The notes beneath the pieces are model-generated. The model saw only the letters and a program-made list of their open reading frames with translations, was not told where the DNA came from and made no database searches. A program made the position numbers and the translations under genes. From Calothrix sp. PCC 7716 (GTDB lineage: Bacteria; Cyanobacteriota; Cyanobacteriia; Cyanobacteriales; Nostocaceae), in contig NZ_AP025018.1 of NCBI RefSeq assembly GCF_019977735.1, positions 2,294,001 through 2,358,000 on the forward strand: DNA of 64,000 bases. The letters run 5' to 3'. Shown here piece after piece: positions 1 through 64,000 of the stretch. The number at the start of each line of letters is the position of its first letter. Within the stretch, counting starts at the first letter, position 1.

Positions 1-86
1 TGAGATAGTGCTTATAGATTATACGGGTTCTATAAATTTCCAATTAATAAGTCAGTGACAGGAATTAATTGAGGTGGCTTCGTAAA

Positions 87-284
87 ATGCCTGTGTAGTT
101 TACTCCTGAATTGAAAGACATTCTTTCAGAAGCTGGTTGTTACTTTGTACGTCAAGGAAAAGGTGACCATGAAGTTTGGTATAGTCCAATTACAAGCCGT
201 CGTTTTGTAGTGGATGGTTCTATTAAATCGCGTCACACAGCAAATAGTGTTTTGAAACAAGCGGGATTACCTAAAGCTTTTTAG
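87..284 (+). pseudogene. HicA/YcfA-like toxin remnant with premature stop
   Basis: After ATG-Pro-Val there is an in-frame TAG at 96-98. The same frame then continues without interruption to 284 and reads as a HicA-type (YcfA-like) mRNA interferase, with the segments CYFVRQGKGDHEVWYSP and KSRHTANSVLKQAGLP. The His in KGDH fits the family's catalytic histidine. Family members are about 60-75 residues, so the rest of the gene is full length. No good alternative start lies after the stop. The antitoxin partner is not identifiable in the 86 bases upstream. A nonsense-mutated toxin is the simplest reading; a sequencing error is possible. Confidence 0.7.
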
Positions 285-371
285 ATAAGATGTTGGGTTC
301 CGCGCTTCGTCCACCCAACCTACAATATTATTTCTTGTGCGGTGGGCATCCGAGCAAACGCCTTTTTAATT

Positions 372-395
372 GAAACAGGCATCCCTGCCTGTTTC
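372..395. terminator. Palindromic dispersed repeat at the ktrA 3' side
   Basis: Ten-base perfect stem GAAACAGGCA / TGCCTGTTTC around TCCC, 31 bases past the end of ktrA. It belongs to the GGCATCC-type dispersed palindrome seen many times in this window. It probably also acts as a 3' hairpin. The stretch 285-371 holds another short repeat of the form TTGGGTTCC...CCAACCTAC. Confidence 0.5.
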
Positions 396-426
396 ACAAG
401 ATGTTCCACAAGAGATTAAAAAATGA

Positions 427-1122
427 TTAAATTGGTAGACGGTTAATGTCTTTGTTGCAACCAATTACAACCATTGCGGAACCCTTTTGCAGTCGCTTGT
501 CGGGTTCTGGGTTAATTAAGAATTTACCGCCGTTACTAACTGCCAGAAGATTTAAGCCGTAGCGGTTACGTAATTGTAATTCGGAGACGGTTTTGCCGTG
601 AAACTCGTCGGGTACAATTACTTCGACAATGCTGTTATCGGGGTCTAGGTCAAATCTTTCAAGAATAGATGGTTTGGTTAAAGTTCTTGCTAATGCACAA
701 CCTGCTTCAAATTCAGGAAATACAACGTGGTCGGCGCCTACACGTGTAAGTAATTTACAATGAACTTCGCTTGAAGCTTTGGCGACGACATGAGGAACGC
801 CACCTTCTTTAACATTTAAAGTTGTAACGATACTTTCTTGAATATAGTTACCTATTGCAACAATTACAGTATCAAATTCAAATATTCCTGCTTCTTTTAG
901 TGCCGCTGGTTCGGTAGAATCAAGTTGTATTGCGTGTCCAACTATTTGTTCTGTCAAAGCATCCGATACGCGCTTCTCGCTAATATCGGTTGCTAACACT
1001 TGATAACCGAATTTATGCAATGTTGCACAGACAGAACGTCCAAAACGACCTAAACCAATGACGGCAAATTGATGGTTATCTTTACGCAAGCTGCGAAAAA
1101 AACCTAATGATGATAAATTCAC
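427..1122 (-). CDS. ktrA: Ktr potassium uptake regulatory subunit KtrA (RCK/TrkA-N)
   Basis: Cytoplasmic gating subunit of a Ktr-type potassium transporter. It binds a nucleotide and controls the KtrB pore. The 231-residue protein has an RCK-N Rossmann domain (about 17-140) with the nucleotide loop GLGRFG at 23-28, and an RCK-C domain (about 145-227). That is the normal length for KtrA. The gene lies 151 bases downstream of ktrB on the same strand, so pore and gate are probably co-expressed. In cyanobacteria Ktr is a major route for potassium uptake during osmotic stress. The third subunit gene known from Synechocystis (ktrE) is not adjacent. Confidence 0.9.
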   Translation of the reverse strand: MNLSSLGFFRSLRKDNHQFAVIGLGRFGRSVCATLHKFGYQVLATDISEKRVSDALTEQIVGHAIQLDSTEPAALKEAGIFEFDTVIVAIGNYIQESIVTTLNVKEGGVPHVVAKASSEVHCKLLTRVGADHVVFPEFEAGCALARTLTKPSILERFDLDPDNSIVEVIVPDEFHGKTVSELQLRNRYGLNLLAVSNGGKFLINPEPDKRLQKGSAMVVIGCNKDINRLPI

Positions 1123-1273
1123 GATTTTTACCTTGATGTATCCTGGCTATTTCTTGATTAGCTATTATTTAGCGGAGGTCACTAGCTGCATAAATTTTTA
1201 AAAATAATTCTTTTATCCATAAATTATTGTAACACTGCAAAGTCAAATTTAAGAGATTTACTTGTCACTTAAA

Positions 1274-5569: not shown

Positions 5570-7651
5570 ATGGCATCATCGCTTTTGGGTCGCTTGAACG
5601 CAGAACGAAATCGTCGGTTTGTAGGAAGAGTACAAGAACTAGCACTGTTCCAAAATACTATAGCCTCGACTGAACTACCTATTAATATCTTGTTTATCTA
5701 CGGGCCTGGTGGAGTTGGTAAGACAAGTTTGTGCGCGCAGTTTATGCAGTTGTGCGAACAACTTAATTGTGATTATCTTTCTATTGAAGCGCGTAACTTA
5801 GAGGGGGCGCCGGAATCGTTCTTAGCAGCGTTACGCGGTATTATGGGTTTGCAAGAATCAGAATCACCTTTAGAAGTTTTAAAACTAAGTAATAAACGTA
5901 ACATCATATTTATAGATACTTACGAAAATATAGCAACGCTTGATGAATGGCTGCGCGAGGAATTCCTACCACACTTATCTCTTGATACTTTAATCGTCCT
6001 TGCTGGTCGCACTCCACCTTCCCCTGCTTGGCGCAGTGACCCAGGTTGGCAGGCATTAATTCGCACTTTACCTTTACGTAATTTGAGCTATGAAGAAAGT
6101 TTAAGTTATTTAGCTCGTCGAGATATTCCCAACACTCAGCACCAAATAATTCTCGACTTTACTCATGGTTATCCACTTGCACTGTCGTTGGTAGCAGACG
6201 TATTTACCCAGAAAAAGACAACCTTTCAACCTGATAGTCAACCAGATGTTATAAAAACTTTACTTGAACGCTTTATTCAAGATGTACCATCAACTGCTCA
6301 CAGAATGGCACTCGAAGCTTGTGCGGTAGTACGTTTGACAACTGAAGCTTTATTGAAACAAATGCTTGATTTGTCTGAGGTTAGGGATATTTTTGAGTGG
6401 TTGCGGGAACTTTCGTTTGTAGAATCAGGGCAAAATGGTTTATTTCCCCATGATTTAGCGCGAGAAGTATTAATAGCTGACTTACGCTGGCGCCATCCAG
6501 AATTTTACGCAGAATTACACCAACGCGCGCGTAATTACTACACCATAAAATTAGGTCAAACCCAAGGAGATGAGAAACACCGGGTTCTTTTTGACTACAT
6601 GTTTTTACATCGTGATAATGCTGCAATTCGTCCACGCTTTACTTGGCAAGAACATAGCAGTTTACAAACAGATGTATATAGAGAAAGCGATAAAGCTGGA
6701 ATTTTAGAAATAATCACACAATATGAAGGTAAAGAATCTGCTTCAATTGCAGCACATTGGATATCACGACAACCTGAAAATATTGTAGTATTCCGTGATT
6801 CCAATACCATTCCAGCAGGGTTTGCGATTTTTGTAGAACTGCATAAAGCCACAGCACAAGATATAGAATTAGATACAGGCGCCGTTGCAGCTTGGCAATA
6901 TTTACAATCAGAAGCTCCATTGCGTTCTTCGTCTGAAGGCGCCACTATATTTAGATTTTGGATGGCACGCGATACATATCAAGCAGTCTCACCAACCCAA
7001 AGCCTAATATTTATCAACTTTGTACAATACTTCCAAAAAACACCTGGACTAGCTTATACATTTTTACCATGCGCCGAACCTGAAATGTGGGCGCCGATGC
7101 TAACGTACTTCGATTTAAAAAGATTACCCAAAGCTGACTTTGAAATCAACAAACGAATATACGGCATTTATGGACATGACTGGCGAATAATTCCACCCTC
7201 AGCTTGGCGAGAACTCTTAGCAAAACGCGAAATAGATGCCAAAAGCGAAGCAGAAACAGCTTCTATCGTAACTCCTAGATTATTAGTACTAAGCGAACCC
7301 GATTTTATCGAAGCAGTAAACGACGCATTAAAAAACTTCACTCGTACCAACGCATTACACAACAGCCCACTATTATATTCACACCTAATCGAAAACAAAG
7401 TTAACACCAACGATATCAACGAGCGAATTTCCACTTTACAAACCTTAATCAAACAAACCGCCGAATCCTTACAAGCATCACCGCGCGACGATAAACTCTA
7501 CCGTGCCATACACAGAACATATATAAACCCTGCCCCCACTCAAGAACAAGCCGCCGAACTACTAGACCTACCATTTAGTACATACAGGCGCCATCTCAAA
7601 GCCGGAATGGAAAGAATAGCCCAAATCCTCTGGCAACAAGAAATCAATTAA
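5570..7651 (+). CDS. P-loop (STAND-like) ATPase with GNAT-like region and C-terminal HTH
   Basis: Large cytoplasmic regulator-like protein of 693 residues. Walker A GPGGVGKTS (about residues 45-53), a Walker B strand NIIFIDTYEN (about 111-120) and a following LAGR sensor-like segment give a STAND/AAA-type nucleotide switch. The middle (about 370-570) resembles a GNAT acyltransferase fold by its pattern (IPAGFAIFVEL, then YGHDWR). The last 45 residues form a helix-turn-helix (AAELLDLPFSTYRRHLKAG) like a sigma region-4 or AsnC-type reader. An earlier in-frame GTG at 5549 would add seven residues, but the ATG has the better GAGGG-like ribosome site. Ligand and target genes are unknown. Confidence 0.7.
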   Translation: MASSLLGRLNAERNRRFVGRVQELALFQNTIASTELPINILFIYGPGGVGKTSLCAQFMQLCEQLNCDYLSIEARNLEGAPESFLAALRGIMGLQESESPLEVLKLSNKRNIIFIDTYENIATLDEWLREEFLPHLSLDTLIVLAGRTPPSPAWRSDPGWQALIRTLPLRNLSYEESLSYLARRDIPNTQHQIILDFTHGYPLALSLVADVFTQKKTTFQPDSQPDVIKTLLERFIQDVPSTAHRMALEACAVVRLTTEALLKQMLDLSEVRDIFEWLRELSFVESGQNGLFPHDLAREVLIADLRWRHPEFYAELHQRARNYYTIKLGQTQGDEKHRVLFDYMFLHRDNAAIRPRFTWQEHSSLQTDVYRESDKAGILEIITQYEGKESASIAAHWISRQPENIVVFRDSNTIPAGFAIFVELHKATAQDIELDTGAVAAWQYLQSEAPLRSSSEGATIFRFWMARDTYQAVSPTQSLIFINFVQYFQKTPGLAYTFLPCAEPEMWAPMLTYFDLKRLPKADFEINKRIYGIYGHDWRIIPPSAWRELLAKREIDAKSEAETASIVTPRLLVLSEPDFIEAVNDALKNFTRTNALHNSPLLYSHLIENKVNTNDINERISTLQTLIKQTAESLQASPRDDKLYRAIHRTYINPAPTQEQAAELLDLPFSTYRRHLKAGMERIAQILWQQEIN

Positions 7652-7654
7652 TTC

Positions 7655-7790
7655 TCTTGTGGAACAGGCATCCCTGCCTGTGAATTTTAGTTTTATTTTT
7701 TACCACAGAGACACAGAGAACACAGAGAACAGAGAGAGAAAGAGCCGCACCCAAATTATTTGTAGGTTGGGTGGAGGAACGGAACCCAAC
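7655..7790. repeat. Cluster of three dispersed repeat types
   Basis: The spacer after the ATPase gene holds no convincing gene. It carries a GTGGAACAGGCATCCCTGCCTG palindrome family member (7658-7680, abbreviated here), an ACAGAGACACAGAGAACACAGAG run (about 7698-7720) and a GTAGGTTGGGTGGAGG...AACCCAAC inverted motif (about 7761-7790). All three types recur elsewhere in the window. The remaining bases to about 8000 show nothing recognisable. Confidence 0.6.
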
Positions 7791-8002
7791 ACCATCAACC
7801 AAAATATTCTAAGTGTAAACTCTGTTGATGAGTATAAATTATTGTGCCAACATCATATCAATCACATATTAGCTGCTTTTAATATTAAACTTAAACGCTT
7901 ATCTTCAGGATAGGCACAGATTTTTATACATATATTCTTCAAAGGCGCCAATTAACTGTCGCCACCTATTTGCATAAATATTTATACTCTAGGATACTCA
8001 TA

Positions 8003-9351
8003 ATGTCAGACAACGCATTAGAAACTCTTCGCTTAATTTTTCATGACCAACCAGACCTCTTAAAAATCATTGAGAATGCAGCAACATTAGTAAAAGAAAG
8101 CCAAGCCAAAGATATAATACTTCCAAAAAATATTACTGAACTTAAGGAACTTATCCAAGAATTCCAATTACTAAAGATGAATTAGTCACAGATTATATTG
8201 AAATCAATGAAGTAAGAGTTAAGGAATTAAATGGCTTTAAAAAATGCATCAACTTTTTTACAAATTTATTTATTGGTAATGAAGTATTTGAAGAAAAATT
8301 AATTAATGAAACAGTCAGAAAACCTATAGAGAGGCTGGAAACTCGTTTTCTTGGCTACGAAAAGAAAGTAGTTGATACTATCGAAGTTGTTGTTGGACAA
8401 GTAGAAGATTTTCCGATAGTTGATAGTTTAAGCTTAGTTCAATATGTTGAAAATCACAGCAGCGAGAGAAAAAGCTTCGATGGCAACGATTTTAGTAAAC
8501 AATTTATACCTGATATAATTTTTTATTTAATTGCAGCAGATAAACAGTTTTTACGTGATGACTGTATTTATCTACAGGATTTGTTGAAACAACATAGCCA
8601 AATTATTTATGTATTGAATACATTTAGCAATAAACAAGCCATTGAGAGCCAATCAGCTACATTTGAAAATATTACAGATGTAGTCAGCAAAATTAACAAA
8701 GTTCACATTTCGGCTTTCGGAGAAACAAGTCAAGCTGAAATAGTTAAAATCAACTGTTGGACAGGAGAAGGAATTGCTGAGTTAATGACTTCTGCCAAAC
8801 AAATGTTAGAGTTGGATAAAGCAAAGGTATTTGACGAATTGATTAATTACCAGAATAAAAAGGCACCTGTTGAGTTTTCTAATCAAGTAAAACGAGAAAT
8901 ATTAAAATTTGCAGCACATGTAAATCTGGTAACACATGGTACGTATGGAAAGAGGAAAAAAGTTTATGAAGTTGTTGGGTATCACACAAAAATAGTAACT
9001 CGGCAGGTAATTGATAGATACAAAGAAGAATATTCTCACACCGAGTATTGGGAAGAAGAAACAGGAGAAGTCAAGCTCGTAGGTACTAGTTACTATTATT
9101 TTGGATATAACGCGGTTTCTTTGTTACTTACACTTGCTCATCTTACAGCTTCTGACATCATAGGTGATCAAAACCTGAAAAATATACAAGATTGTTATGA
9201 ATCATTGTATAAAATAATTTCAAGTAAAGTAAACAAGCTACCAAGTTTTCCTACTCAACCACAGGAAAATAATATTTTTAATATTTTGGAATCTGAGCTT
9301 GATAAGCTATTTGAGGGAGCGTTTAAAGTTGGCGCCCATAGAAATAACTAG
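8003..9351 (+). pseudogene. Degenerate GTPase-like gene, frameshifted and lacking a P-loop
   Basis: Two pieces in different frames. The first runs from ATG 8003 to the stop at 8183-8185 (helical, NALETLRLIFHDQPDLL). The second is open from 8146 to 9351 without a proper start. The second piece looks like the back half of a dynamin/IRG-like GTPase: the segment PDIIFYLIAADKQFLRDDC is typical of the switch II to G4 strand, followed by IIYVLNTFSNK where an NKxD motif would be expected. The glycine-rich P-loop that should lie near the junction is missing in all frames. A deletion plus frame change in an ancestral GTPase explains this best. Alternatively the second frame is translated by coupling as a GTP-independent protein. 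Confidence 0.55.
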
Positions 9352-9418
9352 GTTGGGTTGATAAAAGTTTCGCAAAAAAAGCTAGTTGATGTTGGGTTCC
9401 CCCGAAGGGATAGCCAAC

Positions 9419-9771
9419 CTACGGTTTACTATCACTTGTTTCCTCATATGACGCTACAACAGCAATTCTGTAACCAAGCGCATCTAGAAACTCAATTAAA
9501 GTCAAAATCTCCTCACCACCTGTTTGTGCGAGGATTTTATCAAGTTTTTTGTGGTGTTGCTGTGCTGATAAAGAATAGTCACCTAACTGCTTGCGTGCTT
9601 CAACTACTTTTTCTAATGCCGAACGTAAAATATTTGGGTTGTAACCATCTTCATCTAGTTCTAGCATTACCCCTATACAGAAATATAACCTGCTGTTCGT
9701 TCTGGGTTTTTGAGACGAGAAATTAAATAGTCACGGTAACTACTGCTCTTGGGCGCCTTTGCTTCTTTCAT
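9419..9771 (-). pseudogene. HigA-type antitoxin/regulator, frameshifted
   Basis: From ATG at 9769-9771 the frame reads KSSSYRDYLISRLKNPERT, then hits a stop. It resumes in another frame from about 9667 (MLELDEDGYNPNILRSALE ... LIEFLDALGYRIAVV) to 9419. Together the pieces match the layout of the probable addiction-module antidote family (DYLxxxLKDPExAxxYL, then a lambda-type HTH). The break is an apparent 8-base insertion, TAGGGGTA, between GTA and ATG. No toxin gene is found on either side. The downstream 82-residue frame could still be translated on its own from its ATG. Confidence 0.6.
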
Positions 9772-9784
9772 AATCTATACAATA

Positions 9785-9870
9785 CCTCTCTCTGTGTACT
9801 CTGTGTCTCTGTGGTAAAAATAAATACTTAAATAAGATGCAGGCAGGATGCCTGCTCCACAAGAGTTTTT
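9785..9870. repeat. CTCTGTGTCTCTGTGG run and GGATGCC palindrome
   Basis: Contains the reverse form of the CACAGAGACACAGAG repeat (about 9787-9817) and a GCAGGCAGGATGCCTGC palindrome with CTCCACAAGAG flank (about 9838-9867). They occupy the place where a toxin partner of the broken antitoxin would be expected. Confidence 0.6.
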
Positions 9871-9991
9871 GAACAATAGTATTCTTACTTACCTTGCTTT
9901 TTTGGCTTTCCTTAATGAAGATCAAAGCATTTAGCTGTTAATTTTGGCTAAAAATAAGTAAACGTGACAACACCCTTTTGTATTTATTGCT

Positions 9992-11962
9992 ATGTCAGAA
10001 TCAACAATAGAATCAATTCTTCAGGAAAAGCGTTTATTCCAACCCAGTGCGGAGTTTTCGCAAGCTGCACAGATTAAAAGTTTAGAGGAATACCAAAAGC
10101 TTTACGACGCAGCAAAGGCTGACCCTGAGAAGTTTTGGGCATCTTTAGCGGAAAAAGAATTACACTGGTTTCAAAAATGGGATACTGTGCTTGATTGGCA
10201 ACCTCCGTTTGCAAAGTGGTTTGTAAATGGAAAGATTAATATTTCTTACAATTGTCTTGACAGACACTTAACTACCTGGCGCAAAAATAAAGCTGCGATT
10301 ATTTGGGAAGGTGAACCTGGTGACTCGCGAACTCTCACTTATGCACAGCTACATCGCGAGGTTTGTCAGTTTGCCAATGTTCTCAAAAGCTTAGGCGCCA
10401 AAAAAGGTGACAGAATTGGAATTTACATGCCAATGATACCCGAAGCAGCGATTGCAATGCTTGCTTGCGCGCGTATCGGCGCCCCTCATAGTGTTGTTTT
10501 TGGTGGTTTCAGTGCCGAAGCTTTGCGTGATAGGCTTAATGATGCACAAGCGAAGATTGTAATTACTGCCGATGGTGGTTGGCGTAAGGATACAGTTGTT
10601 GCCCTTAAAGAGCAAGTTGATAAAGCTTTAGATAATGGCGCCTGTCCGAGTGTAGAAAATGTACTCGTAGTTAAGCGTACTGCTCAAGAAGTTAATATGG
10701 CACCGAACCGTGACCATTGGTGGCATGAGTTACAGAAAGATGCTTCTGCTGACTGTCCTGCTGAACCGATGGACAGCGAAGATATGCTGTTTGTTTTATA
10801 CACTTCTGGAAGTACAGGAAAACCAAAAGGAGTTGTGCATACCACTGGTGGCTACAATCTTTATACCCATATGACCACCAAATGGATATTTGACTTGCAA
10901 GATACCGATGTATATTGGTGTACTGCTGACGTAGGTTGGATTACTGGACACAGCTATATTGTTTACGGGCCACTTTCTAATGGCGCCACAACGGTAATGT
11001 ATGAAGGGGCGCCACGTGCTTCTAACCCTGGTTGCTTCTGGGATGTAATTGAAAAATATGGCGTAACTATCTTTTACACGGCGCCTACTGCAATTCGCGC
11101 GTTTATTAAAATGGGTGAGCAGCATCCTAACGCGCGCAATATGTCATCGTTAAGATTGTTGGGTACTGTGGGCGAACCAATTAACCCTGAAGCTTGGATG
11201 TGGTATCACAAAGTAATTGGTGGAGAACGCTGCCCAATTGTTGATACTTGGTGGCAAACCGAAACAGGCGGTATTATGATTACACCTTTACCAGGCGCTA
11301 TTTCCACAAAACCTGGTTCCGCTACTCGTCCTTTCCCAGGAATTCTTGCTGATATTGTAGATTTAGATGGTAATTCTGTACCAGAAAACGAAGGTGGTTA
11401 TCTTGCCGTCCGTTATCCCTGGCCTGGTATGATGCGTACAGTATACGGCGACCCCGACCGCTTCCGCCGCACTTACTGGGAACATATTCCTCCTACTGAT
11501 GGGAAATATACATACTTTGCTGGTGATGGCGCCAGACGTGATGAAGACGGTTACTTTTGGGTCATGGGTCGTGTAGATGACGTGTTAAATGTAGCAGGAC
11601 ACCGCCTTGGTACAATGGAAGTTGAATCAGCATTAGTTTCCCATCCTGCTGTAGCAGAAGCCGCTGTTGTTGGTAAACCTGATGAATTAAAAGGCGAAGA
11701 AGTAGTTGCTTTTGTAACTTTAGAAGGAACTCATCAAGGCAGCGAAGCACTAATTAAAGAACTTAAACAACACGTAGTTCAAGAAATTGGCGCCATTGCT
11801 CGTCCAGGAGAAATTCGTTTTACCGACGCTTTACCAAAAACTCGTTCAGGTAAAATTATGCGGCGCCTATTAAGAAATTTAGCTGCAGGTCAAGAAGTTT
11901 CTGGTGATACTTCAACACTCGAAGATAGAAGCGTCCTCGATAAATTGCGTGAAGGCGCCTAG
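9992..11962 (+). CDS. acs: Acetyl-CoA synthetase (AMP-forming)
   Basis: 656-residue ANL-superfamily enzyme that activates acetate to acetyl-CoA through acetyl-AMP in the cytoplasm. The ATP/AMP-binding loop [11 protein letters not shown] (about 270-280) and the acetate-pocket motif [10 protein letters not shown] are present. So is the C-terminal [11 protein letters not shown] with the regulatory/catalytic Lys621. Length and motif order are canonical for Acs. The gene stands alone, with repeat-rich spacers on both sides. It has the densest GGCGCC loading in the window, with ten sites in under 2 kb. Confidence 0.97.
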
Positions 11963-12320
11963 TACGAGCGGGTTTATGGATATTCTAAAACAGAGTGAAA
12001 TATCTGCTTAACCCACCCTTACAAAATGGTCTTGTGGAGCGGGCATCCTTGCCCGCCCTTTACTCTATTAGTTCTTGTCATAACTTAGGGGGTAAATGTT
12101 TCTACCACAGAGACACAGAGATCACAGAGTGAAGAGTAATAAACCACAAAGGCACAAAGGACACAAAGGAAGAGAAAAGAAGAGAAAACTCGCCAAAATT
12201 ATTTCTAGCTTTAATAATTGGTTTGATAACCGTTTATTAGCTAAATTATAATTCATTGGCAAAAGGCACCACCTCATTTAAAGTATCACTACAAAGTTAA
12301 TATTAATAGACGAGGTGATT
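11963..12320. repeat. Gene-free spacer with dispersed repeats
   Basis: Holds a CTTGTGGAGCGGGCATCC...GCCCGCCC palindrome (about 12031-12058), a CCACAGAGACACAGAGATC run (about 12102-12125) and an ACAAAGGCACAAAGGACAC run (about 12147-12170). No reading frame or RNA was recognised. Confidence 0.6.
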
Positions 12321-12551
12321 ATGTCCGCCAACTCTGAGCCTGTTATGTCAGAAAATGTTGCAAGAGCAAGAAAAGCTATTAAAAGAGTTAGAAGCTTGAG
12401 AGAATCTATACTAGCTAAGGGTATAGATGGCATCTACGAGTATGTTGAGGATGTTGACAGAGATTGGCTCGAAAATTGGACAGATGAAGATATATTAATG
12501 ACAGACGAAGCTGCGTTGAATACTATGGTAAAGAACGCGCATCAATATTAA
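12321..12551 (+). CDS. Small hypothetical protein, helical and charged
   Basis: 76-residue protein starting at an ATG with a good GAGG ribosome site six bases upstream. A GTG two codons earlier is less likely. Composition suggests an N-terminal amphipathic helix (VARARKAIKRVRSLRESIL) and an acidic second half with the WLENWTDEDI segment. No family recognised. It is followed after about 90 bases by a hairpin terminator, so it looks like a monocistronic gene. It lies at the start of a 3.6-kb stretch without GGCGCC sites. Confidence 0.6.
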   Translation: MSANSEPVMSENVARARKAIKRVRSLRESILAKGIDGIYEYVEDVDRDWLENWTDEDILMTDEAALNTMVKNAHQY

Positions 12552-12641
12552 ATGTGATAATTGAATACCTTAATTTTCTGACCCAGATTGGAGATAATAA
12601 CGTGACTGTAATATCTGTAAAATAATTAAATAAAGCACAAA

Positions 12642-12662
12642 AAGCAGGATTTTAACCTGCTT
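12642..12662 (+). terminator. Hairpin terminator after the small gene
   Basis: Stem AAGCAGG / CCTGCTT around ATTTTAA, followed by AATTTCGTTTGTTT. It fits a factor-independent terminator for the 12321-12551 gene. Confidence 0.6.
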
Positions 12663-12793
12663 AATTTCGTTTGTTTAAGGCTTGATTTGCAAATCTAGGT
12701 CATTTCCTGCCGCTTGATTGCATAAGTAGGAAGGCGCTAGAAATAGCTTTGATTATGGGTTGTAATAATGACTGCGAGCAAAGGTACTTAGTT

Positions 12794-15700
12794 ATGAGCC
12801 AAGAAAAAAGCAACATTAAAATATGCGAGTTTTTACGCATTGTATCCTTTGCTGGATTTGTCAGTATGCTGTTGCTGCCTGATGTAGGGATAGCTGGACT
12901 CTACGAAGTGACAATCGCGGAGCAACCGCAATCGCAGCAAGCAACCGATGCAGCAGCAAAACGATCTTTTGTAGATTCGTTTTCAGAAAATATAGTTAGG
13001 AAAGTCTCTGCTAGTGCCAACAATACAAGCTTACGATTGCAACTAGTCCAGTCGCCAGCAACAAAACCTGCGCCAAGTCCAATCCAACTACTGATTAATA
13101 AAGCATCTCAACTTTTCAAAGAAGGATATGAACTGTCCAAGCAACCATCAGTAGCAGCACAGCGACAGGCAATTAGTAAATACGAAGAGATACTAAAAAT
13201 TTGGAGATTACCAGAAGTACGTGCCGAAATACCTGAAAAAGCTCGCTCCTATGAAGCTGATATACTTTTCCACATCGGCTATATCTACAGCGTCGAGCTG
13301 ACTGAATACACCAAAGCTGTGGGATATATGGAGCAAGCATTAGCTATCTCGCGGGAATCCAAAGAACCAAAAGCTCGCTCTACGCAAGGTTTAGCCCTCT
13401 TGGGACTTGGCGGAGTTTACCGAGAATTAGGAGAAAAGCAAAAAGCGGTTAATGCTTATACCCAAGCCCAGTCATTGTATCATGCTGAAAATCAACCAAA
13501 AGTAGAGGCTCAAGCACTGTCAGGAATTGCTGGGGTATATGGTAGATTCGGCGAACAGAAAAAAGAGCGCGAGTTCTTAGATAAAGCTTTGGCGATTCAC
13601 AAGGCAAATAAAGATTTACCAGAACAAGCAAGTACACTGACACTCATCGCATTAAACTGCCAAAAATTGGATGAAACAGAGAATGCCCTTAAGTATTACC
13701 TACAAGCATTAGAAATTTATCGCCAAACAAAAGATTTATTTGAACAAGCAAACACACTCATTGCCATAGGCTTTGTCTACAGTACAAGAGGCGCTCGCCT
13801 TTCAGCAGAAAAATATATCCAGCAGGCTTTAGAGTTACAAAAGACAGTCCTAAGACAATTGCAACAGAACGTAGAATATCAAAGAAATCAAATCATTATT
13901 CTCCAGCAAATTGCCACCAGCTACTCTGCGTTGGGCGATACACAGCAGCAAATCGTCTATTTAAAACAAGCAGAAACTATTGCCCATGAGTTAGGTAGAA
14001 CCCAGGATGAAGCACAGGTGATTTCCAATATCGGTGAGGCTTACTATAATCTAGGTGAGACTCAAAAGTCCCTTGAGAATCTTAATCAAGCCCTAAAGCT
14101 GCAACGTGACATTAAAGATTTTCAAGGAGAAGCTAAAACACTAGTAAATATTGCCTCTATTCATACAAAATCAGGAGAATCTCAGCAAGCCCTAAATAAA
14201 CTCAACGAAGCACTGGAGATTTCTAAACAAAAACAAAATTCCGTTCTAGAAGGAGAGATTCTCTATGATATGAGCGGCGTTTATGGAAATTTAGGGGCTT
14301 ATGACTTGAGTATCCAAAAAACCAAAGAAGTTTTGGCAATATATCAGAAAAGCAATCCGGGTTTAGTAGGAACTGCTCACAATTCCATAGGTAGTGCTTA
14401 TTTACAAAGTTGCTTTTATCAAAAAAAACCAGAAGATTGTAGTCAAGGATTGGACTATTTCAAGCAGGCGTTAGACTACGCCCGTAAAAAAGATTCTGTT
14501 TCCATGCAAGCTAGCATCCTTGGAAACATTGCCAAAGCTTATGAGTTATTAAAGGATTATCCGCAAGCAATTACCAATGCCAAACAAGCTTTGGAATTAT
14601 CTCGCAAATATAAGCTTAAGGATATTGAAAAGACTGCCCTCGGTTTATTAAGCGCTGCTTATGAACGCGCTGGAGATCATCAAAACGCACTTGATGTTAG
14701 CAAACAAAGTTTGTCGCTATCACAGCAACTAGGAGATTTAACATCACAAGCCACCGTCTACAAAATTCAAGGTACGATTTACACTTCTATGAAACAGCCG
14801 CAGCAGGCGATAGAGGCTTATCATCAGGAACTAAAGCTAGCAAAGCAAATAGGCGATACATCCAACCAAACCTACCCACTCTATAAAATAGCCATCATTG
14901 AACGCGATCGCGGAAATCTCAACCAAGCCAAAACACAAATAGAAACAGCCATAAAACTCATTGAGAGTATACGCGGCAAAGTTACTAGCCAAGATTTACG
15001 TACTTCCTACTTTGCGACAGTGCAGGACTACTACGAATTTTACATCGATCTGTTGATGCAACTGCACAAACAAAACCCAAGTCAGGGTTACGATGCATTA
15101 GCGTTACATGTCAGCGAACGTTCCCGCGCTAGAGGACTTGTAGAACTATTAGCTGAAGCAGGAGCAAATATTCGCAAGCATGTTGACCACAAACTGCTTG
15201 CTACTGAGCAGCTTTTACTTAATAAAATCGATGCTACTCAAAAACGAATCCAAGAATTACCAGCAAAACCTAACAACGAAACTAGAATCGAAGCACTTAA
15301 GAAAGAAAGCGAAAATCTCCTTACCGAATACCGCGAACTGCAAACCAAAATCCGCACCACCAGTCCAGAATATGCCGCAATTCAGTATCCAGAACCTTTG
15401 GAGCTAAAGCAAATTCAGCAACAACTCGATAAAGACACCGTATTACTGCAATATTCCTTGGGTAAAGACCGTAGCTATGTTTGGGCAGTTACACCCGACT
15501 CTCTCCAAGCTTACGAACTTCCCGCACAAAAACAAATCGAAGACGCTGCCAACAACTTCCGAGATGCCATGCTTTCCGGCGCCACTCCTTTCGGCAAAAA
15601 TAATCCTGATGCAATAAATAAGCCTGCTTCCCAACTTAGTCAAATTATTCTTGCACCCCTCGCTAATAAATTAGAGAAAAAGCGGTTACTAATTGTCGCT

Positions 15701-16588: not shown

Positions 16589-16602
16589 GTGTCAAGCGCT
16601 AA

Positions 16603-17427: not shown

Positions 17428-17450
17428 GTTTTTATATTACCTATTTTTAT

Positions 17451-18038
17451 TTAAAGTGTCTCGACATCAGTTTTAACCAATGTTACATCTTCATAAATAT
17501 CAGCTATATTGCACCGAAAATTAACACTTGTAAACTCGACTTCTTCACCTTCTGTAAAAGAATATAATTCCCAACGCCCTTTTTCATTACGACGGAAGAT
17601 ATCAATATTCATTGTGTCTTGAGAAACCAGCACATATTCCTGTAAAGAAGACGAACGACGATAATCTTTAAATTTTGTACCTCTATCTTTTGCCTCAGTA
17701 CCATCTGATAATACTTCAATAATTAAGCAATAATGAGATTTAGAGTATTCAGAGTCTTTGTCTCGCGCGTCACAAGTTACCATTACATCTGGGTAGTAGT
17801 AACGACTTCTTTTATACACTTGCGCTTTCATATCGGACATAAATACACGACAACCGCTACCCCGTAGATTTATTCGCAGCATTGTCGCCAGGTTTAAAGC
17901 AATAGTGGTATGTGGGTCACTCGCCCCTGCCATTGCGTAAACTTCTCCATCAATATACTCATGTTTTATCTCGCTAATTTTCTCACCTTCTAGATATTCT
18001 TCGGGAGAAATATACTCTTGGCGCCTGTTTGTAACCAT
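17451..18038 (-). CDS. Uma2 (DUF820) family PD-(D/E)XK protein
   Basis: 195-residue member of the Uma2 family, which is highly expanded in cyanobacteria and has a restriction-endonuclease-like fold. The family's active-site positions are present: Asp in YYPDVMVTCD, Glu in CLIIEVLSDGTEAKDRG, and the downstream Lys/Tyr (KFKDYR). Length is normal. The physiological role of Uma2 proteins is unknown. It is probably co-transcribed with the ATP-grasp gene. Confidence 0.85.
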   Translation of the reverse strand: MVTNRRQEYISPEEYLEGEKISEIKHEYIDGEVYAMAGASDPHTTIALNLATMLRINLRGSGCRVFMSDMKAQVYKRSRYYYPDVMVTCDARDKDSEYSKSHYCLIIEVLSDGTEAKDRGTKFKDYRRSSSLQEYVLVSQDTMNIDIFRRNEKGRWELYSFTEGEEVEFTSVNFRCNIADIYEDVTLVKTDVETL

Positions 18039-18132
18039 GATCCATTATCCAAGCGTGTAAACTTCTAACTTATATTTTAAAGTTATTCTAGCTTTAAGGG
18101 TTATTAGATAGTATGGTGGGCAGTGTCCACCC

Positions 18133-19145: not shown

Positions 19146-19156
19146 TGCACATGTAC

Positions 19157-19183: not shown

Positions 19184-19196
19184 ATTTATTTGTTAG

Positions 19197-41175: not shown

Positions 41176-41183
41176 TTTATACA

Positions 41184-50633: not shown

Positions 50634-52316
50634 TTAAGCATAGCTTCCAGTTGACTTGATGGAATCTGCTATTTTTTTCAACGTTTGCGTAATAGGTTGA
50701 TGTGTTTGTAAAAACATTTGCGCGCAGTTGCGTCCTGGTAGTCCAGATATGGAGCCACCTGGATGCGTGCCGGCGCCTGTCAAGTACAAATTGTCAATAG
50801 GGGTTTTATAATTTGCAATTTCTGGTAATGGACGGAAACACAGCATTTGTTCAAGTGTCATATCAATATGATAGTAATTTCCTCCGTAAGTACCCAACCT
50901 TTGTGCTAACTCTGCTGGACTTTCAACATGACGCGCAATAATCGAGTGTTTGAGATTAGGCGAATATTCTGCCAGTTTATTTAATACTCTATCAGCGACT
51001 TTATTCTTCAATTCATGCGTCCAACCAGTACCTTGTAACCCGGTACCCTCAGCACCAGCTATTTGATACGGTGCAAAAAACTCAATCCATAAAGTATGCT
51101 TACCTGGTGGCGCCATCGAAGCGTCAAGTGCTGTGGGCATAACTACATACATAGAAGGGTTTTCATCGGGTATTTTCCCTAAAGTAATCTCACTATGCGC
51201 TTGTTCTACATGGTTCATCGAGTCAGCAATCAAAATTGAACCAATCAAATATTCATCCCGATGCTGGTGATGTTCAAAGCGCAAAGGTTCGGATAGCGCA
51301 CAGTCTATCTTCAAAATAGTTTCGTTGTTATTAACAATGCGTCGTTCTAGTCTTTTTCGCAAATTGGCATCTGCACTATCAACGTCACTGCCATCCATTA
51401 ACTGTAAAAATAAACGTTTAGCATCAAGACTTGAAATTACACCTTTCTTGGCACGGTATTCTTTACCGTTACTTACTCGCACACCGACAGCTTTACCGTT
51501 ATCTACTAATACCTTCTCAACTCTTTGGTCAGTAAGAATTAAACCACCATTACTTTTAACACAATTTACTAATGCTTTTGTTAAGGCGCCTGTACCACCA
51601 CGTGGACGTGCCATACCAGGGTTGTGTCGTAATGCCATCATCATTGCTCCGAATGACATGGCTTTTTGTGAAGGTGGTGAACTTAGTTCTGCTGAAAGTC
51701 TTGCTAATGGTGCTTTGACAAATTCCTCGTCAAAATACTCGTTGATATTGTCCATAGGACTGCTCAACAAGGTGCGAAGTAAATCTAGGGTTGTGTCTGG
51801 CCCACCTAAAATAGAGAATAAATCTTGTAGATGTGTCAACCCGTAGCTACCAGCAATATCTACTATTGATTTAGGCGCCGCATTGAAAAATGGTGTTACT
51901 GCTTTAATAAACCGCTGCCAAAATTCAATATATTCAGCATACCCTTGGGCATCACTCTTACTAAAACGGGCAATTTCTGCACATGTTTTTTCTACAGATT
52001 TATGTGCTAAAAAATACTTACCGTCGGGATGCGGGCAAAATACTACAGGGTCACAAGTTAGATATTCTAAACCGTATTTGCGTAATTCTAATTCTTCGAT
52101 TACAGACCCTAAGAAAATAAATAGGTGATTAATAGCACAAGGGTTAAATTTAAAACCAGGCGCCTCTCTTGGTAAAAGTTCTTCGGTTGTGGCGCCTCCC
52201 CCAGGTATAGAGCGCGCTTCAAGCAGTAGGACGCTGTACCCAGCTTTAAGTAGATAGGCGGCGCATACTAATGCATTATGTCCGGCGCCGATTATTACAA
52301 CATCGTATGCTTCCAT
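50634..52316 (-). CDS. crtO: CrtO-type carotenoid ketolase paralogue 1
   Basis: 560-residue FAD oxidoreductase of the phytoene-desaturase-like CrtO family, which introduces the 4-keto group into beta- or gamma-carotene. The FAD loop DVVIIGAGHNALVCAAYLL and the C-terminal YLTGAGTHPGGSISGLPGRN are diagnostic (one residue run shortened). The length matches CrtO (Slr0088). A second, similar gene lies 1.2 kb upstream on the same strand. This copy departs more from the Synechocystis sequence (for example GGGATTEE in place of GGAATTE, and HNALV for HNGLV), so substrate specificity may have shifted. Confidence 0.82.
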   Translation of the reverse strand: MEAYDVVIIGAGHNALVCAAYLLKAGYSVLLLEARSIPGGGATTEELLPREAPGFKFNPCAINHLFIFLGSVIEELELRKYGLEYLTCDPVVFCPHPDGKYFLAHKSVEKTCAEIARFSKSDAQGYAEYIEFWQRFIKAVTPFFNAAPKSIVDIAGSYGLTHLQDLFSILGGPDTTLDLLRTLLSSPMDNINEYFDEEFVKAPLARLSAELSSPPSQKAMSFGAMMMALRHNPGMARPRGGTGALTKALVNCVKSNGGLILTDQRVEKVLVDNGKAVGVRVSNGKEYRAKKGVISSLDAKRLFLQLMDGSDVDSADANLRKRLERRIVNNNETILKIDCALSEPLRFEHHQHRDEYLIGSILIADSMNHVEQAHSEITLGKIPDENPSMYVVMPTALDASMAPPGKHTLWIEFFAPYQIAGAEGTGLQGTGWTHELKNKVADRVLNKLAEYSPNLKHSIIARHVESPAELAQRLGTYGGNYYHIDMTLEQMLCFRPLPEIANYKTPIDNLYLTGAGTHPGGSISGLPGRNCAQMFLQTHQPITQTLKKIADSIKSTGSYA

Positions 52317-53540: not shown

Positions 53541-55232
53541 TTAATTTATTTTGAAGACTGAGGAGACTGTGGAAGCTATGGCGTCTCTTGCGTCTTTGAG
53601 TGTTTGGGCTATGGGACGGTGTGTTTGGAGGAATACTCGCGCGCAGTTTCTTCCCGGCATTCCTGATATTGAACCACCTGGGTGTGTACCTGCTCCTGTT
53701 AAAAATAGGTTTTCGATGGGTGTTTTGTAGTTGGCTATTTCTGGTAATGGTCGGAAGAATACCATTTGGTCTAGGGTCATATCTATATGGTAGTAGTTAC
53801 CTTTATAGGCGCCTAATCTTTCTCCTAGTTCTGCGGGACTTTCTACGCGACGCGCGATAATGGAATTTTTGAGGTTGGGTGAGTAATGCGCGAGTTTATC
53901 AACTACTTTGTCGGCAACTTTGTTTTTTAATTCGTCAGTCCAACCTGTACCTCTTAACCCTGTTCCCTCAGCGCCTGCTATTTGATATGGTGCAAAAAAC
54001 TCTATCCATACTGTGTGTTTGCCATCTGGCGCCAAGGATGGGTCACGGAAGCTTGGCATGACTACATACATGGATGGGTCTGCATCGGGAATTTCTCCAA
54101 GTGTACATAAACTATGCGCCCTTTCTACATGCGTCATGGAGTCGGCAATTAATATTGACCCTACTAAATATTCGTCTTTGTGTTCGTGGTTGGGGAAATG
54201 CAAGGGTTGGTCTATCGCTAAGTCAATTTTAAGAATTGTCTCATTGTTATTAACGATGCGACGTTCTAAGCGTTCTCGTAAATTGTTATCAGCAGCATCG
54301 ACATCGCTCTTCTCCATCAACTGTAGAAATACTCGTTTAGCATCAATGTTAGAGATTACACCATATTTGGCGCGGTATTCGTTCCCACCTGCTGCTCTAA
54401 CACCGACGGCTTTACCATCATCTACCAACACTTTTTCTATATGCTGGTCACATATAATTTTGCCGCCTAAGCTTGTGACTAAGTTGACTAAGGCTTGTAC
54501 TAAAGCGCCTGTTCCACCGCGTGGACGTGCCATACCTGGGTCATGACGCATTGCCATCATCATTACACCAATGGCGAGGTTTTTTTGTGAAGGTGGCGCC
54601 CCTAGTTCTGCGGCAAGTCGTGATAATGGTGCTTTGAGAAATTCTTCATCGAACCACTCGTTAAGAATGTCTTCTGCACTAGTTAGCATGGTGCGGACAA
54701 AATCTAAAGTTTTATTCGGGGAACCTACCACCGAGAATAAATCTTTAATTTTGGCAATATCATAGTTACCAAATATATCTATAACTGATTTTGGGGGAGC
54801 GTTGAACATTGGTATCATTGCACCAATGGCGTGCTGCCAGTAATTTGTAAATTCTGCGTACTTTCTCGCATCGCGTTCATTGTAACGTGCGATTTCGGCA
54901 CAAGTTTTTTCAAGTGACTTATGCCCTAAAAAGTATTTTCCGTCTGGATGTGGGCAAAATACTACTGGGTCGCACTCTAAATACTCTAAACCATATTTTT
55001 CGAGTTCTAATTCTTGAACTACTGGTCCGAGATGTATAAACTCGTGGTCTATAGCACATAGATTAAATTTAAACCCAGGCGCCTCTTTAATACATTCCTC
55101 TGTTGTTGCGGCGCCACCTGGTACAGAACGCTTTTCGAGTAAAAGTACACTATAGCCAGCTTTGAGCAAATACGCAGCGCACACCAACCCGTTGTGTCCG
55201 GCACCGATAATCACCACATCATACTCTTGCAT
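53541..55232 (-). CDS. crtO: CrtO-type carotenoid ketolase paralogue 2
   Basis: 563 residues of the same family as the gene at 50634-52316, sharing most of the sequence. FAD loop DVVIIGAGHNGLVCAAYLL, GGAATTEE, the LNEWFDEEFLKAPLSRLAAEL region and YLTGAGTHPGGSISGMPGRN-like ending (FLTGAGTHPGG here) agree closely with Synechocystis CrtO. This is the better candidate for the ketolase making echinenone-type carotenoids. It is the upstream member of the crtO cluster, and its 5' side adjoins a two-hairpin element. Confidence 0.88.
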   Translation of the reverse strand: MQEYDVVIIGAGHNGLVCAAYLLKAGYSVLLLEKRSVPGGAATTEECIKEAPGFKFNLCAIDHEFIHLGPVVQELELEKYGLEYLECDPVVFCPHPDGKYFLGHKSLEKTCAEIARYNERDARKYAEFTNYWQHAIGAMIPMFNAPPKSVIDIFGNYDIAKIKDLFSVVGSPNKTLDFVRTMLTSAEDILNEWFDEEFLKAPLSRLAAELGAPPSQKNLAIGVMMMAMRHDPGMARPRGGTGALVQALVNLVTSLGGKIICDQHIEKVLVDDGKAVGVRAAGGNEYRAKYGVISNIDAKRVFLQLMEKSDVDAADNNLRERLERRIVNNNETILKIDLAIDQPLHFPNHEHKDEYLVGSILIADSMTHVERAHSLCTLGEIPDADPSMYVVMPSFRDPSLAPDGKHTVWIEFFAPYQIAGAEGTGLRGTGWTDELKNKVADKVVDKLAHYSPNLKNSIIARRVESPAELGERLGAYKGNYYHIDMTLDQMVFFRPLPEIANYKTPIENLFLTGAGTHPGGSISGMPGRNCARVFLQTHRPIAQTLKDARDAIASTVSSVFKIN

Positions 55233-61779: not shown

Positions 61780-61844
61780 TTGTGGGGTGGGCATCCTTGC
61801 CCGCCCTGACCCACCGGACGGGCGAGGACGCCCATCCCACAAGA
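61780..61844. repeat. Inverted pair of GGCATCC-type palindromes
   Basis: TTGTGGGGTGGGCATCC...GCCCGCC on one side and GGACGGGCGAGGACGCCCATCCCAC on the other (abbreviated), head to head between two convergent genes. Confidence 0.7.
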
Positions 61845-61847
61845 TGG

Positions 61848-63131
61848 TTAATCTAATTTTTGGAAAACTCTTAGCAGTTGTGCGAAAAATTCTTCCATTC
61901 TGTACTCAAAAACAGTTTCCCAAAGTAAAGAGCCGTTGTACCTTATTTCGTAGACACCTGAACTGAACTCCCGGAAATCCGCAATTAATCCTTCGCGTTT
62001 GGCATGATTTAACCTTTTTATAGTGCGAGGTGTAATTTCCATGACTCTCTTCCGTTGTGTTCGAGTCAGAGCATCCCAAGCTGCTTGCTTGCAATCTTCA
62101 TGAGTTTTAAGTGCTTTGCTGATTTCTTCCCATGTACTGGCAGTTTGAAATGTTTGAATCAGTAACTCAACTGTGGTCAGTTGAGGAGTGGAGGAAAGTG
62201 TGATTGGGGAAGTCTCAACCTCTACAGAGGATGTTAAAAATTCATAATCATCGATTGAATGATCTTTTTCCTCTGGTTCAAAACTCCAAGCACCTTGAAC
62301 ATGTTCATCTTCGTCACACTCCTGACTATAGTCCAAAGTTTCCGACTCCATTAAATCAGGTTCTGCGCTTACTTGGTCAGCATCCCAAGATTCATACAAG
62401 TAGTTTACAGGCGCCGTTTCTACTTCATTATTAGGCGCCGAATATTCAGTTACTTCTAGCTCTTGGGTAACGTTATCTGATGTATAACTAACGGATGCTA
62501 AAAATTTGTATTTAGATTCATAACGAACTGCCACCGCATCAGAGATAATTGCTTGTGCAGTTCTACTCTCAGCATTCATCATGAATTCCAGCATGACTCC
62601 TGTGGGTTGGTCATATATGGGGCCAATTTGACAAGCTCGCTTCCCGCCTATCAGTTGCCAAATAGTTGCTGCATCTTCTTCTGTTTCTTCACGAGTAGCT
62701 CGCGGTTTACGACACTGTTTTACGAAACCACGAACTTTGTCCTGAGTAATAGTAGCCAAGGTTTTCATCTGGCTAATAACAGAACTGTATTTCTTTAAGT
62801 TCCCGGCTATTTGGAAGAGTGTATGTATTTCAATAAGTGCTAACTCGTGTGGAAGAAAGATGTTAAAAGCTGCTTCCAACTTGAGGTAACGCTTCTCTTC
62901 CCCCTCCCAACCTAGTTTTTTTAACAATTCTTTATATTCTTTTCTAGCCAACGTTGCTTTTTGCTTTGCTAACCAAAACGCATAATGTAGAACACGCACG
63001 GTTGACGTATATAAGGCGCCGAGAGGGTGCGAACAATCATCAGCATTGGTCATGAAGTCGCTAAACTGTGCTGGAGATAAAACAAGTTCGTCCAGACTGG
63101 TAGTGCCAAATCCCTGGAATTGTGTAATCAT
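61848..63131 (-). CDS. Large protein of unknown family, helix-rich ends and acidic middle
   Basis: 427 residues, soluble. N-terminal half: helical, with LHYAFWLAKQKATLARKEYKE and a Lys/Arg-rich VKQCRKPRATREETEEDAA (pieces). Middle (about 225-315): acidic low-complexity linker. C-terminal part: LIQTFQTASTWEEISKALKT, then RKRVMEITPRTIKRLNHAKRE, resembling a helix-turn-helix, and a final beta/helix unit. A DNA-associated or replication/partition-type role is possible but not shown. The next upstream gene is an HTH regulator, separated by a strong hairpin. Three GGCGCC sites suggest long residence. Confidence 0.7.
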   Translation of the reverse strand: MITQFQGFGTTSLDELVLSPAQFSDFMTNADDCSHPLGALYTSTVRVLHYAFWLAKQKATLARKEYKELLKKLGWEGEEKRYLKLEAAFNIFLPHELALIEIHTLFQIAGNLKKYSSVISQMKTLATITQDKVRGFVKQCRKPRATREETEEDAATIWQLIGGKRACQIGPIYDQPTGVMLEFMMNAESRTAQAIISDAVAVRYESKYKFLASVSYTSDNVTQELEVTEYSAPNNEVETAPVNYLYESWDADQVSAEPDLMESETLDYSQECDEDEHVQGAWSFEPEEKDHSIDDYEFLTSSVEVETSPITLSSTPQLTTVELLIQTFQTASTWEEISKALKTHEDCKQAAWDALTRTQRKRVMEITPRTIKRLNHAKREGLIADFREFSSGVYEIRYNGSLLWETVFEYRMEEFFAQLLRVFQKLD

Positions 63132-63153
63132 AGTATTCTGGAATTAATTCAAG

Positions 63154-63189
63154 GCGGCTGCACAAATCTTGCCGGACGTGTGCAGCCGC
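63154..63189. terminator. Perfect 11-bp GC-rich hairpin
   Basis: GCGGCTGCACA / TGTGCAGCCGC around 14 bases, followed on the plus strand by TTTGCTTTT. It lies between the HTH gene (upstream on minus strand) and the 427-residue gene, and probably ends the HTH transcript or attenuates read-through. Confidence 0.7.
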
Positions 63190-63233
63190 TTTGCTTTTAC
63201 AATATTTATAATACTGCTAAACACAGCTTTTGT

Positions 63234-63566
63234 TTACATATAATTGTTAAATATTTTTGCGGAATTAAAAAAAGCACTCACATCGACATTAAAGACTTTG
63301 CAAAGCACTTGTACTACTTTGAGCGAAACGGTTATATCGTCGCTTTTAAGGCGTTTTGCGAATATATGAGGCTGTTCCAGTTGTTGTATATATTGATATG
63401 CAACCCTGTATCCTAATTGATTGGTCATTTCTGATAATTGTCGGCGAGTCATATTTCCGCGTAAAGCTTGCAGTGTCAATGCTTGTTGCTGCGTCCACGT
63501 CAAACTATAAACATGCTTAATATCTACCATAACGATTTCATTTTTACTGTTGGTACTTGTCATCAT
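63234..63566 (-). CDS. XRE-type helix-turn-helix regulator
   Basis: 110 residues. QALTLQALRGNMTRRQLSEM, a Tyr/Gln-rich recognition region (YRVAYQYIQQLEQPH) and VVQVLCKVFNVDVSAFF form a Cro/C1-type HTH with its fourth and fifth helices. Several Met codons could start the protein (63566, 63563, 63530), and the longer frame to 63671 is not supported by a ribosome site. It may control itself and the gene beyond the terminator. Confidence 0.65.
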   Translation of the reverse strand: MMTSTNSKNEIVMVDIKHVYSLTWTQQQALTLQALRGNMTRRQLSEMTNQLGYRVAYQYIQQLEQPHIFAKRLKSDDITVSLKVVQVLCKVFNVDVSAFFNSAKIFNNYM

Positions 63567-63671
63567 AAAATTTCTATATATTGTTGCCAGCAGTATTAAC
63601 TTAGCATTGAGATGCTCGATATGAAGAAGAAACATGGCACTTACGCTTATACTACCCCGGCGGCTAAGCAA

Positions 63672-64000
63672 AAATTTACTACAATTCGCAGTAATTGAGA
63701 AAGCTATTCGTTTTATGCTCTTATCGCGTAGACGCGCCTAGTAGTAGCACGGTTGTACAGTCAGTAATGTTGGTAGTATTTGAAACTATAATACTACTTG
63801 ATAATCAGGCACCTGCCTTATTTTATTCATACCAACACCGTAGACAAATTTCCCGTGTGCATGAACATGCAGAGTTCACAGTTCTGTTTCGTTTACTGTG
63901 AACTGCTATGCTTATGCTTATTTGTGTACTTTTTCAATCACAATTAAAAATATCAGGCGCCTACGAGCGTGCAACTGTACCCCGCGTAACACCAAGTTGA
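63672..64000. other. Window end without a supported gene
   Basis: 329 bases with a GCGTAGACGCGCC partial palindrome near 63727 and one GGCGCC at 63957. No reading frame with coding character; a gene may begin beyond the window. Confidence 0.35.

Follow-up and report, generated by a model that had tools for sequence, protein, structure and literature searches.

GGCGCC as a probable alternate highly iterated palindrome throughout a genus of heterocystous cyanobacteria

HIP1, a highly iterated palindrome (HIP) of cyanobacteria, is GC-rich, occurs about once per kilobase in genes and spacers, and is tied to solitary methyltransferases; its purpose is unsettled (PMC4390886). Elhai (2015) identified an alternate HIP, the hexamer GGCGCC, in Calothrix PCC 7103, where it is by far the most over-represented hexamer across 97 cyanobacterial genomes, and reported it from a 19,301-base stretch of Calothrix D253 as well (PMC4390886). 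For PCC 7103 he reports two methyltransferases of the GRCGYC type and no enzyme recognisably specific for GGCGCC. He proposes a G-meC-directed mismatch repair that acts as a ratchet turning near-sites into HIPs, regards a second methyltransferase copy as perhaps critical, and describes alternate HIPs as sporadic and absent from clades (PMC4390886). Here we analyse a stretch of 64,000 bases of Calothrix sp. PCC 7716 (the window; C1:2294001-2358000 of the 12.37-Mb genome, G+C 38.8%), in which GGCGCC occurs 122 times, together with the genomes related to it. Throughout one heterocystous genus (the Calothrix PCC 7103 / Dulcicalothrix group), GGCGCC is probably an alternate HIP that took the place of HIP1, and it is probably linked to an orphan methyltransferase.

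GGCGCC shares with HIP1 its GC-rich palindromic form, its presence in genes and spacers, a similar order of density and a probable methyltransferase link, but its sequence is another one that lacks a GATC core; in the window GATC itself is strongly depleted. It also agrees with the alternate HIP of PCC 7103 in hexamer, density order, HIP1 loss, GACGTC depletion and GRCGYC-type methyltransferases. The two differ in range: one genome and the D253 stretch there, all seven genus genomes with conserved sites here. A first-pass annotation of the window had been unsure whether the hexamer was described as a dominant form; it was, for PCC 7103 and D253, and the presence throughout the genus is new. 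We found no open-licence PMC paper naming GGCGCC as the HIP of a whole genus. New as well are a HindV-family enzyme without an endonuclease match in all seven genomes, and the occupation of more than half of the synonymously reachable positions (409/746).

Persistence across the clade, in seven of seven genomes, contradicts the published view of alternate HIPs as sporadic, and the published argument from their absence in clades falls away. If the history offered with reserve below is right, alternate HIPs would be stable heritable replacements and not passing anomalies. Exceptions to HIP1 are the best lever on the purpose of HIP1. A clade, seven or more genomes strong, that swaps HIP1 for another methylatable palindrome, and that includes the culture-collection strains PCC 7102 and PCC 7103, opens direct tests of methylation as the driver, since it offers a single candidate gene, a single base predicted to be methylated and sites by the thousand, with relatives that bear HIP1 as controls.

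GGCGCC and HIP1 in the window, the genus and the family

The 122 sites extend from 733-738 to 63956-63961 of the window (short motifs are given without strand), one per 525 bases with a mean spacing of 522 bases. Base composition predicts 3.4 copies, a 35.5-fold excess that ranks GGCGCC top among the 64 hexamer palindromes by this ratio. Dinucleotide-preserving shuffles of the window (n=100) gave a mean of 5.8 copies (standard deviation 2.2, maximum 12), and none reached 122. The first-pass annotation had counted about 120 sites by eye, one per roughly 530 bases, where it expected about five, and its figures and its claim of a more than twenty-fold excess hold. The maximal-order Markov ratio for GGCGCC in the window is only 1.7, below for example CGCGCG at 2.4, but the terms of that model include the sub-words of GGCGCC itself and so inflate the expectation. 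The genome-wide count, a check that the annotation had proposed, came out far above its control, with 20,380 copies of GGCGCC against 7 of the reversed hexamer CCGCGG. GGCGCC is thus a GC-rich palindrome with extreme genome-wide over-representation. Its density of 1,648 per Mb, and those of the other six genus genomes (about 1,150-1,710 per Mb, genome sizes being rounded), lie in the alternate-HIP range of 1000-2000 per Mb.

HIP1 is low in the same DNA. The octamer, GCGATCGC, has a single copy in the window, as the annotation had seen, at 14904-14911 (0.26 expected by shuffling), and 66 copies in the whole genome, where its reversed control has 64. With GGCGCC at 20,380, these counts bear out the description of GGCGCC as standing in place of HIP1. 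Across the seven genus genomes HIP1 has 31-163 copies, 0.6-4.0 times its reversed control, and so shows no large excess. The one copy in the window falls within the largest gap between GGCGCC sites (11954-15578; 3.6 kb), which is mostly occupied by a TPR/CHAT gene (12749-16588), the gene that holds the octamer, and contains 5 of the window's 14 GATC sites. The gap region may have been acquired recently from a cyanobacterium that bears HIP1.

The survey covered 217 genomes of the family, 7 of this genus and 210 others. Besides our own, the genus genomes are Dulcicalothrix desertica PCC 7102, Calothrix PCC 7103, NIES-4105, HK-06 NIES-2101 and the metagenome-assembled Calothrix C42_A2020_038 and FI2-JRJ7. 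GGCGCC numbers 7,475-20,380 per genome in all seven and at most 1,053 in each of the other 210, and the genome with 1,053 has a reversed control of 1,270. HIP1 has at least 535 copies in 209 of these 210 genomes; the exception outside the genus, G182, is 88% complete and has 30 copies, with 15 of GGCGCC.

From a phylum sample of 386 genomes, 43 of them from this family, we followed one candidate for a second origin. G420, from the same order, has 2,493 GGCGCC against 38 reversed, the most among the low-control genomes sampled. We rejected it: in 360 kb its G+C is 47.7%, GGCGCC exceeds what composition predicts by a factor of only 1.9 and HIP1 shows a 31-fold enrichment, and it has no close homologue of the candidate methyltransferase P0001 described below (best 38% over 165 residues). 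In the same sample G401 has 283 GGCGCC against 2 reversed in 1.7 Mb, and other genomes of its genus have 160-461 against 7-33; judged by the reversed-control ratio only, the excess is modest. Within the family, four genomes of one genus (G076-G079), which have a methyltransferase match and no endonuclease match, hold 144-277 GGCGCC against 9-42 reversed and keep HIP1. G194 has 326 against 9, with 535 HIP1 in 10.7 Mb, few for its size, and no close P0001 homologue. The ratios of G076-G079 and G194 may reflect depletion of the control instead of an excess of GGCGCC.

A candidate orphan methyltransferase

Our methyltransferase survey covered 5-methylcytosine (m5C) enzymes (PF00145), as distinct from N4-methylcytosine (m4C) and N6-methyladenine (m6A) types. 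Each genus genome has 9-17 PF00145 matches, and 60 proteins from 89 matches were clustered, with split pieces, short matches and motif-filter failures left out. Two groups, P0001 and P0002, are common to all seven genomes and one further group occurs in six. P0001 is encoded at C1:10950497-10951501 on the minus strand (PF00145, 214 bits; PADLOC MTase_II, E 1.7e-142), and its closest copies in the seven genomes are 82-100% identical.

By homology, P0001 is a member of the HindV/BsaHI (GRCGYC) family of m5C methyltransferases. Its homologues outside the genus are 54-73% identical, some of them partial, and a HindVP-type endonuclease gene or piece lies directly upstream of the homologue in 29 of 42 such loci, at least two of the 42 having been sampled twice; PF09519 was confirmed in the five upstream proteins checked in Pfam. 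In the literature, R.BsaHI (GRCGYC) resembles HindVP (PMC2413257), and Haemophilus influenzae Rd shows GRCGYC methylation, detected below that study's usual threshold (PMC8565308). GRCGYC enzymes are described with a TL motif that has Arg 11 and Gly/Ala 9 residues upstream (PMC2413257). The recognition loop of P0001 may resemble these, though in an ambiguous register: it has TI, with Arg 11 residues before the T and, 10 residues before it, Ala or, in some orthologues, Gly. P0001 can probably modify GGCGCC, judging from its family homology, from its HindVP-linked relatives and from the depletion of the site in relatives with the restriction system, and is then a candidate for the site-modifying enzyme of an alternate HIP.

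A search for the HindVP endonuclease (PF09519) with one query protein gave matches in 42 of the 217 family genomes, pieces included, and in none of the seven of the genus; nor was one found at six loci of further methyltransferase copies inside the genus. Without an endonuclease match, no complete HindV-type restriction-modification system was found in these genomes. The genus thus shares a same-family methyltransferase with the HindV, BsaHI and HgiDI systems (GRCGYC), but unlike them it has no HindVP endonuclease match, and GGCGCC is enriched, not depleted. The first-pass annotation had called for a methyltransferase of matching specificity and had suggested a methylation-based selection system. 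The homologue of P0001 in all seven genomes answers the call in part: the predicted family covers GGCGCC but recognises the degenerate GRCGYC, not GGCGCC alone. A candidate orphan methyltransferase gives circumstantial support to a methylation-based system of different specificity; as for selection, repair-biased mutation explains the data equally well.

At E 1e-50, P0001 has one match in G060 and in G064 and two or three in the other five genus genomes, some of those in G062 being pieces. Hence a second methyltransferase copy, which Elhai treats as perhaps critical, seems unnecessary to keep the GGCGCC state, given a single match in two of seven genomes. The P0001 orthologue adjoins an mtnW-like gene in six of the seven. 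This neighbour was considered as a hidden endonuclease and dismissed, since its product in those six is a RuBisCO-like protein of mtnW type (five by Pfam, the sixth by blastp; NCBIfam, PDB). In G062 the intact methyltransferase copy has a DnaB-type helicase as its neighbour, on a contig of 16.8 kb; the usual locus is probably there as well but split, to judge from pieces close to the ends of contigs C29 and C207. A change of specificity in the genus enzyme is disfavoured too: no column is fixed differently at the 90% level between the 7 genus proteins and 22 of the 42 other homologues, and the recognition region is no more diverged than the rest of the protein. A further m5C methyltransferase, at C1:2380147-2381211, lies 22 kb past the window end and groups with one other genus genome only.

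Relatives that carry the complete pair of enzymes are poor in GGCGCC. In the 210 genomes outside the genus (presence of either enzyme counts fragments, and p-values are uncorrected for kinship), the median is 5 copies (range 0-166) in 39 genomes with methyltransferase and endonuclease, 6 in three with endonuclease matches alone, and 37.5 in 152 with neither, the difference between both and neither having a p of 2e-7. The reversed control is also lower with both enzymes (26 against 66.5), and the median log2 ratio to control moves from -0.48 with neither to -2.21 with both. In 82 kb around 14 loci with both enzymes there is no GGCGCC (7 expected), no GGCGTC/GACGCC (13 expected) and no GACGTC (6 expected); the 15.7 kb at four loci that lack the endonuclease are likewise free of GRCGYC forms (5 expected). 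The difference in genome counts suggests that GRCGYC restriction systems in the relatives act on GGCGCC.

Conservation and substitution of the sites

We compared 264 kb of the own genome (the window and the next 200 kb) with the six genus relatives, using collinear blast pieces of at least 300 bases around one region, with 26-85 kb aligned per relative. GGCGCC of the own genome is intact at 156/179 positions in G060, 124/156 in G061, 54/56 in G065, 55/66 in G062, 57/77 in G063 and 35/70 in G064, against 119/187, 93/179, 22/51, 41/83, 25/68 and 14/68 for other GC-only hexamers. In the six comparisons GGCGCC is thus kept 1.4-2.4 times better at orthologous positions, on small numbers in the distant pairs. 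Conservation is higher in every coding phase of open reading frames (ORFs; at least 100 amino acids, chosen mechanically and not curated genes) in all six; outside ORFs the advantage vanishes in one, G062 (2/4 against 8/16). Half of the sites are shared even with a genome whose alignable DNA is only about 80% identical, and hence many of them are old and held. Occupancy of the synonymously reachable positions is 226/432 (52%) where the compared stretches of five relatives all fail to align, and 64% where every one of the five aligns. Over all numbers of aligned relatives it ranges over 48-64% with no steady trend; a position scored as unaligned may still be present in a relative's genome, elsewhere or beyond the compared stretch.

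Substitutions at the sites are concentrated in the centre. Among five close genomes, 265 site columns gave 103 differing site states, of which 28 carried two or more substitutions and were excluded, leaving 75 single-base differences. Forty-eight of the 75 fall in the central CpG, as C-to-T at position 3 or G-to-A at position 4, 15 are G-to-A at position 1 (or C-to-T at 6), and 2 are G-to-A at position 2 (or C-to-T at 5). Fifty-seven of the 75 could not be polarised, and the other 18 comprise 17 losses and 1 gain; single-taxon gains of GGCGCC number two, both in the most distant genome. Positions 2/5 evolve more slowly than background non-CpG G/C by a factor of at least 2.5, and positions 1/6 by a factor of 1.2-6.3, the weakest contrast for 1/6 being in the two distant genomes; transversions at positions 3/4 are also below background. 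M.BsaHI methylates the central C of its site, as determined by Neely and Roberts (2008; PMC2413257). The central C-to-T pattern fits methylation of the central C and is suggestive, not proof. A methylation link of GGCGCC is supported circumstantially.

In the 364 kb pooled from the genus, GGCGCC occurs 607 times (14-24 expected), GACGTC twice (22-31 expected) and GGCGTC/GACGCC 22 times (35-55 expected). Depletion of these near-sites beside enrichment of GGCGCC is what Elhai's ratchet predicts. The window itself has no GACGTC, and just two GRCGYC sites other than GGCGCC, a GGCGTC at 53580-53585 and a GACGCC at 61827-61832.

Explanations for the accumulation of GGCGCC

Codon, dipeptide or codon-pair preference could create GGCGCC wherever it is read as Gly-Ala, and GGC-GCC is indeed the most frequent phase, with 223 of the 467 sites in the 264 kb. 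We give this account almost no credence: GGC-GCC encodes those 223 out of 376 Gly-Ala pairs where codon use predicts 9.2, another 187 sites lie in the other two coding phases and 57 not wholly inside ORFs, and just 5 of 390 Ala-Gly pairs are written GCCGGC. The phase and codon-use counts refute codon-pair bias as the cause, and GGC-GCC pairing alone, which the first-pass annotation had named as able to explain the excess away, leaves 244 of the 467 sites off its phase. That annotation had placed sites in all reading frames and in spacers, which agrees with the window counts of 62 in the GGC-GCC phase, 15 and 31 in the other two, and 14 not wholly within an ORF. Synonymously reachable positions hold GGCGCC at 222/375 in phase 0, 64/150 in phase 1 and 123/221 in phase 2. 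Gly-Ala dipeptides are not in excess (376 against 390 Ala-Gly), and hence the pressure acts mostly at the synonymous level. Very-short-patch repair enriches Dcm-related sites in Escherichia coli, a precedent by which Vsr-type repair of deaminated 5-methylcytosine could turn GGTGCC into GGCGCC. This is highly improbable here, with Vsr (PF03852) found in none of the seven genus genomes and in one of the 217 of the family, and with GGTGCC/GGCACC not depleted in the pooled 364 kb (85 observed, 59-72 expected). Another methyltransferase of the genus (m5C, m4C or m6A) could be the relevant enzyme and the HindV-family one a bystander, and the many PF00145 matches per genome, the P0002 group in all seven and the restriction of the survey to m5C enzymes leave room for that. 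We think it improbable nonetheless: P0002 also occurs in 161 of the 210 family genomes without GGCGCC excess and therefore alone cannot explain the genus, and no third m5C group is present in all seven among the 60 clustered proteins.

Weak selection for GGCGCC as a functional motif, to which methylation would be incidental and which might serve for example DNA uptake, recombination or the organisation of the chromosome, accords with the superior conservation of the sites and with the slow change of positions 2/5 and 1/6. A repair bias would conserve sites as well, though, and the filling of over half of the reachable positions, little tied to the number of aligned relatives, looks more like a genome-wide pressure than like selection of individual sites; Gly-Ala dipeptides, moreover, are not enriched. 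We consider weak selection doubtful. A repair ratchet as the driving force of accumulation is put forward tentatively. The data fit a methylation-linked repair ratchet and weak selection alike.

Several observations weigh against GGCGCC as a methylation-linked replacement of HIP1, besides those just given for another enzyme. Two genus genomes retain HIP1 above the reversed control, PCC 7103 at 2.8 times and G064 at 4.0 times. Transitions at positions 3/4 run near the CpG background (0-1.2 times; 0/112 in G065), and the GCGC centre outside GGCGCC is likewise transition-rich, so the deamination signal is not specific to the site. Spacing of GGCGCC is near random (coefficient of variation 0.97), and the dependence of site occupancy on the nearest other GGCGCC is weak and non-monotonic; both give little support to a density set point, which we disfavour. 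Finally, the 16 genomes outside the genus with the methyltransferase only have a median of 61.5 GGCGCC against 37.5 with neither enzyme (p 0.38; log2 ratio +0.57). Without a clear excess there, an orphan methyltransferase alone is insufficient for a HIP. All 16 keep HIP1 in large excess over control, and loss of HIP1 may be the missing condition for GGCGCC accumulation, as Elhai suggested.

The replacement of HIP1 by GGCGCC could have come about as follows. The orphan methyltransferase would derive from a GRCGYC restriction-modification system after loss of the endonuclease, and would methylate the central C (GG-5mC-GCC). Methylated GGCGCC would then serve as a genome-wide mark, in the role held by HIP1 elsewhere. 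Methylation-linked mismatch repair, following Elhai's G-meC model, would convert near-sites to GGCGCC and maintain them, and sites would accumulate, mostly synonymously, until about half of the possible positions held one. As a possible history, which we offer with reserve, a captured GRCGYC system lost its endonuclease in the ancestor of the genus, and the orphan methyltransferase took over the HIP1/CGATCG methylation role. The genome would have been rewritten site by site, and the mark would have been passed on as the genus diversified, down to a nucleotide identity of about 80% in alignable DNA.

Other palindromes are scarce in the window. GATC occurs 14 times where 155-226 are expected and GGCC 12 times where 87-91 are expected; GAGCTC, GTCGAC, TTCGAA and GTGCAC are absent from it, and each has 0-1 copies in the 364 kb of the genus. 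This depletion suggests several present or past restriction systems. The commonest octamer of the window is TCAGCACT, with 20 copies. Short tandem arrays with a 7-base unit (ACTCAGC, GAGTGAT and ACTCCTA types) lie at 23756-23906, 30028-30073 and 41075-41176, and a dispersed repeat of about 80 bases at about 9785-9868 has many matches in at least six of the seven genus genomes among the matches listed. Two amine-oxidase-like proteins of 560 and 563 amino acids are encoded close together on the minus strand, at 50634-52316 and 53541-55232.

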